Positions 26,342-31,395 of a stretch of DNA of 64,000 nt are shown one piece after another; the stretch's first letter is position 1; each line of letters starts with the position of its first letter. The notes below the pieces were generated by a model. The model saw only the letters and a program-made list of their open reading frames with translations, was not told the DNA's origin and searched no databases. This DNA comes from Candidatus Zixiibacteriota bacterium. Its GTDB lineage: Bacteria > Zixibacteria > MSB-5A5 > GN15 > PGXB01. The DNA is taken from positions 62,001 to 126,000 of the forward strand of contig JAFGTT010000032.1 of assembly GCA_016933955.1 (NCBI GenBank), given 5' to 3'. Position numbers and translations under genes: made by a program.

Positions 26342-27115
26342 TTACTTGGTTATCCCCCTGGTGGAACGATCGATAAAATCGAGAATGATCTGAATTTCCT
26401 TGATCGGCTGGATTTCTCCTTTTATCCGCTCAACCGCCTGCGATGTGTTGAGATTGGAAAAGAATAAAAACTTGAAGGCTTTTTCCAGCAGATGAACTGC
26501 CTCCGGGGCAAACCCGCGGCGTTTGAGTCCGATGGCATTAATACCGATAACCTTAAGCGGATACCCGCCGACCAGTGAATACGGGCAGACATCCTGGGGA
26601 ACCCGGAAACCGCCCCCGATCATGCAATGGGCCCCGATTTTAACAAACTGATGAATCGGAACGACCCCGCCGATAATGGCATAATCGCCTATTTCCACAT
26701 GGCCCGCCAGGTTGACGGCATTGGCCATAATGACATTGTCACCCAGGTAACAATCGTGGGCAACATGCGAATAAGCCATCAACAGGCAGTTTTTTCCAAC
26801 CACCGTTTGACCGCTGTGCTTGGTGCCGCGGTTCAGCATGGCATACTCGCGAATGGTTGTTCCCTCACCGATAATCAGACGGGTTTTCTCGCCGCCGAAT
26901 TTCAGATCCTGGGGTACCGTTCCGAGAACGACGCCGTGGGACAGGGTTACACTATCCCGTAATTCGGTGTACTGGGCAATCAGGCAATTGGCGGCGATAC
27001 TGACATTGTTTCCGATTATAGTCTCTTTTTCGATAATCGTATTGGGACCGACCGTAACGTTGTCGCCCAGAACGGCGCTTTTATCGATTATCGCCGTGGA
27101 ATGTATATTGTTCAT
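26342..27115 (-). CDS. lpxA: UDP-N-acetylglucosamine acyltransferase
   Basis: A 257-residue left-handed beta-helix hexapeptide-repeat enzyme that adds a 3-hydroxyacyl chain to the 3 position of UDP-GlcNAc (or the 3-amino sugar), the first lipid A step. The catalytic base H120 is in SHVAHDC. The conserved [15 protein letters not shown] and GLKRRGF segments and the RSTRGI C-terminus are typical. G168 sits at the hydrocarbon-ruler position equivalent to E. coli G173, so a long (C14-like) acyl chain is plausible. Its ATG overlaps the lpxC-fabZ stop (ATGA). Confidence 0.95.
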
Positions 27116-28503
27116 CTTTCCTTAACTATAGCCATGAGTTCTGCTTCCGCCACGACCGTATCGCCGACAAAAGTTTTGCCTTTCATCTTGCAGGTGCCGC
27201 GACGGAACATTAGCATATCCAGTTCGAAACGAAGAGTATCGCCTGGTGTTACCATTCTGCGGAATTTGACATTATCGATGGCCAGGAAGAAAACCAGCTT
27301 GGTTTCAGGTTTCTCCACCGCTTCCAGAAGCAGGACGCCTCCCGCCTGGGCCATAGCTTCAATAATAAGCACCCCCGGCATCACGGGCTTTCCAGGGAAA
27401 TGCCCCTGGAAAAAAGGCTCATTCACGGTGACATTTTTGATCGCCACGACTCTTTTTTCCGGTTCCAGCTCGAGAACCCGGTCAACCAGCAGGAAGGGAT
27501 AACGATGCGGCATAATACTCATGATACCGTTGATATCAAGAAACGGTTCGGCCTTGGACTTCTGAAATTTGCTGGCCAGTTTTTTCTTTTTATAGAGAGC
27601 CCGCAATTTTCGAACCAGTTCCACATTGGCCTTATGACCCGAACGGGCCGCCAGGATATGCCCTTTAATCGGCACCCCGATCAAAAACAGGTCGCCGATC
27701 AGATCCAGGGCCTTATGCCGGACCGGCTCGTTATAAAAACGCAGGGGGATATCATTAATAATCCCCGTCTTCCCGACAAAAGCCTCATCCGTCAAATTTA
27801 AAGCCCTCTTAATCCGGTCCACCTCGACCTGCCCCTTGTCGGAATCATAAATTACAATAGCCGAATTCAATCCCCCGCCCTTGATCAATCCTTTATCGCG
27901 AAGCATCTCCACCTCGGAAAGAAAACAGAAAGTTCTCGCCGGGGCGAATTCATCGACAAATTCCTTCTCCAGATCGATCAGGGTAGTATATTGCGTTCCC
28001 AGAGCCGGATTTTTATAATCGACCATGAAAGTTATGCGAAAAGTATCCGATGGTGTCACCACGATATCGACCGCCCGATCCGGTTCGGAATACGACATGG
28101 TCGTATCGACTTCCAGGTACTCCCGTTCGGCATCCTGGGTCTCGATTCCGGCCTCAAGCAATTTATCGACATAGGGGCGGGCCGAACCATCGACCACCGG
28201 CGGTTCATTGGCCGTTAATTCCACTTCCAGATTGTCGATCTGGAGTCCGGATATGGCCGCCAGAACATGCTCCACCGTATATACCCGGGCATCTCCGTTG
28301 GCCAGGCTGGTACCTCGCGAGATATCGACCACATGGTCAATATCAGCCACCACCGATGGCCGGCCGGGAAGATCGGTCCGGGTAAACTTCACCCCGCTGT
28401 CAGGGGGCGCCGGTTTGAATGTCATCCTGGAGGGATTCCCGGTATGCAGACCGATACCTTGCAGTGATATTTCTCGCCTTATGGTTCTTTGGTTTTCCAG
28501 CAT
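27112..28503 (-). CDS. LpxC-FabZ fusion (UDP-3-O-acyl-GlcNAc deacetylase / 3-hydroxyacyl-ACP dehydratase)
   Basis: A 463-residue bifunctional protein. Residues 1-305 are LpxC, the zinc deacetylase that commits to lipid A. Its metal ligands are H79 (EHVLAA), H263 and D267 (HKALD), and H290 (SGHKANV) is the catalytic histidine. Residues about 320-463 are FabZ, with H333 (MPHRYPF), H368 ([12 protein letters not shown]) and E382, dehydrating 3-hydroxyacyl-ACP for fatty acid elongation. The fusion is known in Bacteroidetes and related phyla. The ATG at 28503 is preferred over an upstream GTG because AGGTGG is 5 bases before it and it restores the standard LpxC numbering. The two halves compete for the same acyl-ACP pool. 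Confidence 0.95.
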
Positions 28504-28575
28504 AGTTTCCACCTAAAATGGGATAATACGAATATCGTTATATCTTTACAAGCTAAAAATTCCCATGTAAAAGCC

Positions 28576-28824
28576 CTATATGTCTTTTAAGTTTTTCACC
28601 TGTCTGAACTTACGGAAAAGCTGGACATATTCTCTGACCATCTTCTCCTCGGCCTCGGACACACCTTCCATAACCGGGATACCGATTTTCAATACCGCCC
28701 GGACAATGTCGGCTACGGTTCGATCATGACGTTCCGCCAGGTTTTTTAATTTTTCTTTTAGCTCAAAGGAAACAAAGATATTCAGGCAGTGTTCTCCCCG
28801 GGTTTTCATTTTTCTATCTGTCAT
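28576..28824 (-). CDS. Small ribbon-helix-helix-like protein
   Basis: An 82-residue protein. Residues 12-55 (LNIFVSFELKEKLKNLAE, then RTVADIVRAVLKIG) fit a beta-strand followed by two helices, as in CopG/Arc-type DNA-binding proteins or antitoxins. The C-terminal third is a charged helix. It lies 15 bases after the sigma-4-like gene and 72 bases before lpxC-fabZ on the same strand. No toxin gene is next to it. It may regulate its own operon; function is unproven. Confidence 0.6.
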   Translation of the reverse strand: MTDRKMKTRGEHCLNIFVSFELKEKLKNLAERHDRTVADIVRAVLKIGIPVMEGVSEAEEKMVREYVQLFRKFRQVKNLKDI

Positions 28825-28839
28825 CGTACCCTCCTTAAT

Positions 28840-29346
28840 TTAATGATATTTATGGTGACCGATCAGTATTTGCGGGGTTTGGATAATGATTCCGTATTTT
28901 TCCTTCAAAATCCGGATAATATTTTTCCAGGTTTCTTCTTTTGTTTTGGATTCGATAAGGGCATCGATTTCGACCCGATACGGCGATATACAAAGCGGGC
29001 ATTCTGCCTTTATTTTGTTTTCCAGATCGAATTCGGTTTTAACAAAGCGGGCCAGTAATTTTCTAAGACGGCCGACAGTTCGCCGATGCAGACTTTCCAT
29101 CCGTCCGAAACGGCGATTCAGGGCCAGGGCTATTTTTCGATAAGACTCTCCCTTGAAATAGTAGCGCTCAATAAACTCCCTCTCCAACGGCGAAAGATGC
29201 TCCAGGGCTTCCCTGACGGCCCTGACGACCCTTTCATTGGGCTGGATATTATTATTCAGATAGGGCAGGCTGTAACGATGCCGGGGATCGACCCCGATCT
29301 TGACAATCCAGTCGCAATAGACCAGTCTTTTTCCGGACATACACAA
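28840..29346 (-). CDS. Sigma-70 region 4-like HTH protein with C-terminal zinc-type CxxC/HxxxH domain
   Basis: A 168-residue protein I cannot assign to a named family. Residues 38-105 (NERVVRAVREALEHLSP, REFIERYYFKGESYRKIALAL) look like a sigma-factor region 4 or RNA-polymerase-type HTH, without a region 2. Residues 114-168 start with C116-P-L-C119 and R-V-E-I-D and end with H164-H-K-Y-H168. This pattern is common in small DNA-binding modules of the CxxC...RxEID...HxxxH type. The protein is Lys/Arg-rich. It starts with ATG after GGAAATTGTGT and has direct repeats in its leader region. It is the first gene of a run ending in the lpx genes. Confidence 0.55.
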   Translation of the reverse strand: MCMSGKRLVYCDWIVKIGVDPRHRYSLPYLNNNIQPNERVVRAVREALEHLSPLEREFIERYYFKGESYRKIALALNRRFGRMESLHRRTVGRLRKLLARFVKTEFDLENKIKAECPLCISPYRVEIDALIESKTKEETWKNIIRILKEKYGIIIQTPQILIGHHKYH

Positions 29347-29402
29347 TTTCCTTTTTTATCCGGAAAAAAACGGTTGATCCCGCAGCTGTCCACCATATGG
29401 GG

Positions 29403-29447
29403 ATCACAAGAAATCGTGTGAGACAGACTCCGGGTGTATCACAAGAA
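29403..29447. repeat. Pair of direct repeats upstream of the sigma-4-like gene
   Basis: ATCACAAGAA occurs at 29403-29412 and 29438-29447, 35 bases apart (about 3.3 helical turns). The repeats are in the 169-base gap between the radical SAM gene and the sigma-4-like gene, 57-101 bases before its start codon. The position suits operators for the RHH or sigma-4-like product. Confidence 0.4.
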
Positions 29448-29515
29448 TCACATTGACCCGAAACTTTAAATTTAAATAAATAAATTGTCGATTGGCCGGA
29501 CTGAATATAAGGGGT

Positions 29516-30286
29516 TTAGAAAACCTCGACTGGAATCCCGGTTCGTTCCTCGGTCAGTTGCTTGATTCTCAATAATCCATCTTGATCAATCACCGTCAAG
29601 TTATCATCGGGCGTGCCCCGATCCAGGGAATAAATATGACAGCCTGCGGGCCGGATTTGACCGATGGTCTCCACCCAGCGGTCAATGGCGTAATCATTAT
29701 AGTTGCCATTATCTCCCCCGGCGAAGAGGGCCTGAATTATCACACCTTGAAGTTGTTTCAGGCCCGCCACGATATCATCGAAATTAATATCCCGGTGAGG
29801 CCGATTGAATTTAATGAATAATTCCCTGTAGCCGGCGTCAAGTTTCATAAAACAGACATCCAATCGGCTCAGGGTTTCCCGGATTTCCCGCTTCCAGACA
29901 AAGGCCGAGTTGGACAGAATAGCCAGCCGGGCGTTTGGAACAAGACGTTCTTTGATTTTTTTTACCTCGGTGACAATATCGGTAAAATGGGGATGTAGAG
30001 TCGGTTCGCCATTACCGGAAAATGTCACATAGGCCACATCGGGATTAGCCTTTAAACCGGCCTCAAGAGCCATAGCCACCTGATGAACTTTGGGCATATT
30101 ACGGCCATCGGAGTCGATCACATAGCCCTCGTGTAAGGTAAAACCGTACTGGCAATAAATACAATTGAAAGGACAGGCCTTATATTCAATCGGCAGAATA
30201 TTAAGCCCGAGTGATGATCCCAAACGCCGGGAGTTGACCGGTCCATAAATTATACCATTTTGAAGGCCAAGCAAAAATCTGCTCAT
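29516..30286 (-). CDS. Radical SAM protein
   Basis: A 256-residue radical S-adenosylmethionine enzyme with the cluster motif C38-x3-C42-x2-C45 (CPFNCIYCQYG) and the SAM-binding SGNGEPTLHP strand. The first helix region (YGPVNSRRLGSSLGLNILP) matches the short radical SAM family often annotated as Fe-S oxidoreductases of unknown substrate, encoded beside molybdenum or wobble-modification genes in other genomes. There is no C-terminal Fe-S domain or peptide-recognition module. It is divergent from the DUF5668 gene. Confidence 0.8.
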   Translation of the reverse strand: MSRFLLGLQNGIIYGPVNSRRLGSSLGLNILPIEYKACPFNCIYCQYGFTLHEGYVIDSDGRNMPKVHQVAMALEAGLKANPDVAYVTFSGNGEPTLHPHFTDIVTEVKKIKERLVPNARLAILSNSAFVWKREIRETLSRLDVCFMKLDAGYRELFIKFNRPHRDINFDDIVAGLKQLQGVIIQALFAGGDNGNYNDYAIDRWVETIGQIRPAGCHIYSLDRGTPDDNLTVIDQDGLLRIKQLTEERTGIPVEVF

Positions 30287-30633: not shown

Positions 30634-31395
30634 CTGGACGATTTCAACCCCGAAAGGGATTCCGCCTACGAGGCCGATAATCCGACCGGACAATCGGAAG
30701 GGCCGTCGATTTCCGAATTCAGAAAAAGCCGCCTGTCCTATATCACCCTGTTTATACTGCTGGTTCTCTGGCCCGCCCAGGCCCTGGTGGCGATCGATGA
30801 CCCGACTGCCATCCTGGAGAAAATGTCCCTGTCTTTGATTTTACTGGTCTATCTCCCGACCATAATCATGCAATGGCTGTTTTTTGCCCTGATTTTCCTG
30901 ACTGTTTATCGCGAAAAAACCGGAATGACAGGTATCGGATTTAAGAGAATCCGTCCGATAGATTTCCTGTGGGCGATTGCCTTCCTGCTGGTGGCCAACC
31001 TCTTGATGGCTGTCATTGCTCTCCTCTTCAGCTTGATAAATATCGAAATCCCCGGGGAACTAGGATTGATTCTGCCCACCGATTCCACCGAGCGTATTTT
31101 CTGGGTGATTCTGTCCCTGACCGCGGCAATATGCGAGGAAACCGTTTTCAGAGGGTATCTTTTAACCCGGTTAAAGATATTCGCCGGAACCCGGGGATGG
31201 GTTCTGCCGATAATTCTTTCCTCGCTCTCGTTCGGCGCCGGACATACCTACCAGGGAATCGGCGGATTTGTATTGATGTCAATCTACGGTAGTTTTTTCG
31301 CTCTGCTATATATCCGGACGGGGTCGATCTGGCCGGCCATCATCGCCCATTTTTTCCAGGATTTTTCAGCCCTCTTCTATCCTTACCAACCCTGA
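30634..31395 (+). CDS. CPBP-family intramembrane glutamic endopeptidase, probable CTG start
   Basis: A multi-pass membrane protease of the CAAX/Abi type with the three motifs EETVFRG (EExxxR), SFGAGHTYQG (FxxxH) and HFFQDF. The frame has no ATG, GTG or TTG between its upstream stop (30427) and the GTG at 30787. A start there would cut off a clear first transmembrane helix (SYITLFILLVLWPAQAL). A GGGAG at 30622-30626 lies 7 bases before an in-frame CTG at 30634, giving 253 residues with the helix complete. That start is inferred. It overlaps the convergent secreted-protein gene by 13 bases. The substrate is unknown. Confidence 0.75.
   Translation: MDDFNPERDSAYEADNPTGQSEGPSISEFRKSRLSYITLFILLVLWPAQALVAIDDPTAILEKMSLSLILLVYLPTIIMQWLFFALIFLTVYREKTGMTGIGFKRIRPIDFLWAIAFLLVANLLMAVIALLFSLINIEIPGELGLILPTDSTERIFWVILSLTAAICEETVFRGYLLTRLKIFAGTRGWVLPIILSSLSFGAGHTYQGIGGFVLMSIYGSFFALLYIRTGSIWPAIIAHFFQDFSALFYPYQP

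Follow-up and report, generated by a model that had tools for sequence, protein, structure and literature searches.

A conserved pair of genes for small putative DNA-binding proteins beside lpxC probably forms an autoregulated regulator operon of Zixibacteria

The window analysed here, a stretch of 64,000 nucleotides from a Candidatus Zixiibacteriota bacterium, carries on its minus strand two open reading frames for small proteins, designated SIG and RHH, with the lpxC-fabZ fusion ORF (27112..28512, minus strand; treated here as a neighbour only) downstream of them, as an earlier reading made from the letters of this DNA (the sequence-only reading) had described. SIG (28840..29340, minus strand) codes for 166 aa with an N-terminal RxxYxxWI motif, a region-4-like helix-turn-helix (HTH) and a zinc-type HTH. 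RHH (28576..28824, minus strand), a putative ribbon-helix-helix-type protein of 82 aa, starts 15 nt past the stop codon of SIG. Inspection of the reading frames and comparison with homologues revealed two genuine, conserved ORFs. A rule was applied to choose start codons; the TTG at 29346, earlier taken as the start of SIG, is unlikely, and the ATG at 29340 was preferred. A gene for a CPBP-type membrane protease (window 30787-31395) is divergent from the pair, and such a divergent protease gene is seen near SIG more often than any gene but RHH, in 57 of about 90 loci. A radical SAM gene (window 29516-30286) is located directly upstream of SIG in several loci of the window's own family, f1, and of families f9 and f10.

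The region-4-like HTH proposed for SIG was borne out by our analysis, since the window protein matched both Sigma70_r4 and Sigma70_r4_2 of Pfam above their cut-offs and the structure model agreed. A region-4 match was obtained in 30 of 41 SIG homologues. Structure prediction, suggested earlier for both proteins, recovered the region-4 fold for residues 36-104 of SIG (29029..29235, minus strand), which were modelled by AF2 mostly with pLDDT >90. The nearest folds to this first domain are sigma region 4 structures, e.g., 3hug with a TMt of 0.81; no match in the fold search reached an E of 0.001, and the region-4 assignment thus comes mainly from Pfam. The CxxC...HxxxH domain was confirmed as well: C114, C117, H162 and H166 are invariant across 30 homologues, and the AF2 model places three helices (122-165) between and around the Cys/His pairs, so that residues 114-166 (28843..29001, minus strand) can be described as CxxC, three helices and HxxxH, a putative zinc-stabilised HTH, for which the Pfam search gave no confident match. 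The N-terminal 35 residues are short and modelled mostly with low confidence. Like the sigma-70 factors SigL, WhiG and FliA, SIG matches region 4 by Pfam and by fold over residues 36-104; unlike them, it has no region 2 or 3, and carries an extra C-terminal zinc-type HTH and the conserved N-terminal RxxYxxWI. The region 2 family was absent from the Pfam matches of all 41 SIG members. The candidate that SIG is a sigma factor of the sigma-70 family, with region 4 present and region 2 not found, was rejected; SIG is an orphan protein composed of a region-4-like and a zinc-type HTH.

RHH resembles ribbon-helix-helix families weakly, by profile and by fold. The window protein scores below the curated Pfam cut-offs for these families, and a RelB-like profile match is weak. 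The structure prediction shows helices 20-32 and 37-47 behind a strand-like segment, a pattern that fits ribbon-helix-helix, but the monomer model (pLDDT 68) and the fold matches, mainly to RHH proteins and with MatP and CdbA among them, are weak. RHH is the more conserved of the two proteins, sharing roughly 56-76% identity with the window protein within the order, vs 35-57% for SIG. The curated family libraries named neither SIG nor RHH as a whole protein.

Comparison of 132 Zixibacteria genomes, mostly metagenome assemblies, detected RHH in 113 of them and in 72 of the 78 of high quality, in essentially one copy each; the six high-quality genomes without RHH are all fragmented assemblies. 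Full-length SIG was counted by us in about 111 of the 132, the others being fragmented or incomplete, while the raw SIG tally of 132/132 includes cross-matches to ordinary sigma factors. In 103 of 104 loci the gene directly downstream of SIG is RHH, and SIG/RHH overlaps of -4 or -8 occur in many deep families. In the exceptional locus (L191, genome G049, family f8) the nearest RHH match is just upstream of SIG, and the order is apparently reversed. The pair is kept across the GTDB families of the phylum, pairwise identities of SIG and RHH correlate (r = 0.75), and 14 of 15 families are recovered as monophyletic groups in each single-protein tree, an argument for vertical inheritance. Judged from these sequences, SIG-RHH has been passed on vertically as a single-copy pair in almost the whole phylum Zixibacteria. 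It is apparently restricted to this phylum: named loci in a pattern scan of 84,980 species were almost all Candidatus Zixiibacteriota, on the basis of one scan of a kind that distant relatives would escape. A phage or plasmid origin was discarded, as searches of phage, plasmid and viral collections returned no relatives except ordinary sigma factors.

The leader upstream of SIG contains the two direct repeats 35 bp apart that had been noticed at the outset. The first copy of ATCACAAGAA (29403..29412, plus strand) overlaps an element termed O2 and the second (29438..29447, plus strand) is part of a putative operator termed O1; no further copies occur in the 64-kb window on either strand. The distal operator O1, ATGTGATTCTTGTGATA (29437..29453, minus strand), follows the consensus ATGTGAnTCACRTGATA, which emerged from a de novo motif search of 59 related leaders. 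After masking of O1, a 24-bp element common to 60 leaders was found, ATGTGAnnnnnATGTnnTAGMCA, represented in the window by the promoter-proximal O2 CTTGTGATCCCCATATGGTGGACA (29387..29410, minus strand), in which a GTGA-N7-repeat is followed by the -35 box TGGACA (29387..29392, minus strand; family consensus TAGMCA). These leaders share one layout, the distal operator and then GTGA repeats 11 bp apart abutting the -35 box (TAGMCA, 17 bp, TANNTT). TAGMCA was read as a -35 box because TANNNT hexamers peak exactly 17 bp downstream of it, in 17 of 43 leaders outside f1; in f1 leaders, that of the window included, the -10 is merely T-rich, and the putative -10 position of the window (29364..29369, minus strand), 17 bp past the -35 box, would be the weak TTTTTT. 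The promoter geometry was also tested in deep families and was not significant there. In f1 a hairpin seemed to cover the ribosome-binding site; it was set aside, as the predicted -10 falls inside it, and Rfam gave nothing relevant.

Pairs of RTGA in the leaders of the order, of which those from one genus are not independent of each other, were found at a spacing of 9 bp 41 times vs 1.7 in dinucleotide shuffles and at 35 bp 18 times vs 1.3. Other families have RTGA pairs at 11, 22 and 33 bp, with 26 at 11 bp vs 0.5 expected. The ATCACAAGAA repeats are therefore more than a chance occurrence. They look like an operator, as the sequence-only reading had suggested, and they belong to a leader that is conserved. 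The leader of locus L218 carries five repeat copies.

The exact O1 pattern ATGTGANTCAYRTGAT has 22 sites in the 132 genomes, one per genome and every one in the SIG leader, as placed by the coordinates of SIG; the reversed-pattern control gave 0 matches in the same genomes. With one mismatch, 46 additional sites appeared vs 27 control matches in our tally. Most of the 40 one-mismatch sites that were examined lie inside ORFs, and only one gene, from two sister genomes, is clearly shared as a target. Outside the leader, the O2 pattern matches mostly within ORFs. In families f12, f13 and f15, triple GTGA arrays are situated in the leader of SIG, save for one in a genome without detected SIG; in the rest of the phylum they are close to control level. 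A wider regulon was consequently dropped as a candidate, since the searches with exact O1, one-mismatch O1, O2 and triple GTGA gave no shared second target.

The sequence-only reading had placed the pair at the head of a lipid A operon and had suggested checking its conservation beside lpxC. Within the window's family lpxC begins about 70-85 nt past RHH in every locus checked, which makes read-through possible and speaks for direct control of the lpxC operon, and hence of lipid A synthesis, by the pair, via read-through or a second operator. Adjacency proved to be limited to a part of one order: the window's family and a large part of one other family of the order have lpxC downstream of the pair, 70 nt to several kb away, but it was not found within about 6 kb of the pair in family f2 or in any deep family checked. 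Furthermore, a separate lpxC promoter, TTGTAA - 17 bp - TATTAT (28523..28551, minus strand), is present in the window. TTGNNN-N17-TATAAT-like boxes occur in the RHH-lpxC gap of 12 of 12 f1 loci, and a promoter match of at least 9/12 lies upstream of lpxC in 32 of 33 loci of the order, including those with lpxC far from the pair. This conserved promoter is without the operator, and no exact O1 was found near lpxC in the 132 genomes. Because lpxC carries its own conserved promoter, the pair does not in general head the lipid A operon, a notion that was abandoned on synteny and on the separate promoter, although some read-through may occur in the window's own family. Neither conserved lpxC linkage nor a shared operator, as a dedicated lpxC regulator would show, was observed, and we regard control of lipid A synthesis by the pair as quite unlikely. 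The earlier reading had offered an independent cassette as its other option, and it is this option that stood, the pair being phylum-wide and its exact distal operator being confined to its own leader.

The lpxC promoter, canonical and of TTGA-N17-TATAAT type, is very well conserved across the order and often preceded by an A/T-rich stretch; it could be used as a housekeeping promoter reference for Zixibacteria. The order and spacing of LpxC and FabZ are the same in the order-level loci examined, and the window has them as one fused ORF.

Taken from sequence comparison, SIG-RHH is probably a core autoregulated two-gene transcription-regulator operon of Zixibacteria and not a regulator of lipid A. 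In the proposed mechanism RHH dimers would bind the GTGA repeats cooperatively, at about one dimer per helical turn, SIG, which is devoid of region 2, would act with RHH at the same promoter, and lpxC would be transcribed from its own. By analogy with ParR, Arc and Omega, RHH is probably the binder of the repeats, since direct repeats so spaced are known targets of RHH proteins; the sequence by itself is compatible with RHH or SIG in this role, and the site could also belong to a regulator outside the pair.

Contact with RNA polymerase and positive autoregulation are slightly favoured over repression, at about even chances, the reason being that the proximal repeats keep a fixed register with the non-consensus -35 box they abut. 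Alternatively, RHH, with or without SIG, might repress its own promoter in the manner of CopG, Omega and many antitoxins, while SIG would exert its exported function elsewhere. RHH proteins are mostly autorepressors, and an exact operator unique to its own leader is what simple autorepression would give; a fixed register of repeats placed before the -35 box is more typical of activators, however, and the -35 box differs from the TTGA seen at lpxC, which leaves repression a serious contender with somewhat less than even chances. A further and rather doubtful extension of the autoregulated operon is that, where the -35 box is non-consensus, the orphan region-4-like SIG and the RHH array together substitute for sigma region 4 or help it, so that promoter choice, at the pair's own site and perhaps at other, more degenerate ones, would be controlled by a phylum-specific non-sigma unit split over two proteins; under this extension the pair may be essential in Zixibacteria.

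Being a small operon of two genes, one of them for a putative RHH protein, with an operator only at its own promoter, the pair also recalls a type II toxin-antitoxin-like module, in which RHH would be the antitoxin and SIG the toxin, and the weak RelB-like profile match of RHH points the same way. SIG, however, consists of two DNA-binding modules and has no toxin fold, PADLOC gave no match, and the pair is single-copy and vertically inherited without phage or plasmid relatives, all of which renders such a module highly improbable. The combination of RHH with 11-bp direct repeats is reminiscent of ParR-parC of plasmid R1 (PMC9426499), and, along with the weak fold matches to MatP and CdbA and with a gene that is core throughout the phylum, it could suggest a centromere-like or chromosome-organising site of the ParR-parC, MatP or CdbA type bound by RHH. 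Against this, in eight single-contig genomes the pair lies between about 0.06 and 0.40 of the chromosome away from dnaA, a spread that speaks against an origin or terminus marker and led us to discard a chromosome marker role; moreover, no ParM- or ParA-type partner recurs beside the pair, and the repeats are few, with one array per genome. We therefore give a centromere-like function little credence.

The pair resembles the R1 system in that the leader of the operon coding for the putative RHH protein carries direct repeats spaced by 11 bp, as in R1 (PMC9426499), and the tandem direct repeats expected by this comparison are present in class-level leaders at 11, 22 and 33 bp. R1 ParR needs two 11-bp repeats (PMC9426499). 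Contrary to R1 ParR-parC, the pair is chromosomal, has 2-5 repeats, no ParM partner and no fixed place relative to dnaA, and its RHH is partnered by a region-4-like zinc protein. CdbA of Myxococcus xanthus is a single core-genome RHH DNA-binding protein (PMC7156744), as RHH probably is, and gave a weak fold match, and its solved structure had no match to RHH at the sequence level; CdbA binds many genomic sites (PMC7156744), whereas the exact operator is unique here. The small putative RHH protein of the pair recalls the autoregulators Omega, CopG and Arc, from which the RHH of Zixibacteria differs in repeat pitch, a conserved third helix and an obligate SIG partner. In some species the opposite strand of O1, TATCACATGAATCACAT, is similar to the Omega heptads WATCACW, a likeness that is a lead only.

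To our knowledge, no SIG-RHH pair has been described; a literature search of partial coverage found nothing on such a pair in Zixibacteria. These bacteria are known here almost entirely from metagenome assemblies, and a conserved regulator with a well-defined putative operator offers a handle on their transcription control. The locus also illustrates that gene order beside lpxC can mislead, as a promoter of its own serves the lipid A operon. In family f17 (loci L205, L206, L207 and L217) the pair is kept and the GTGA array is replaced by a conserved TTACTGGAAG element, and in these leaders nature offers a way to tell which of the two proteins determines operator specificity.
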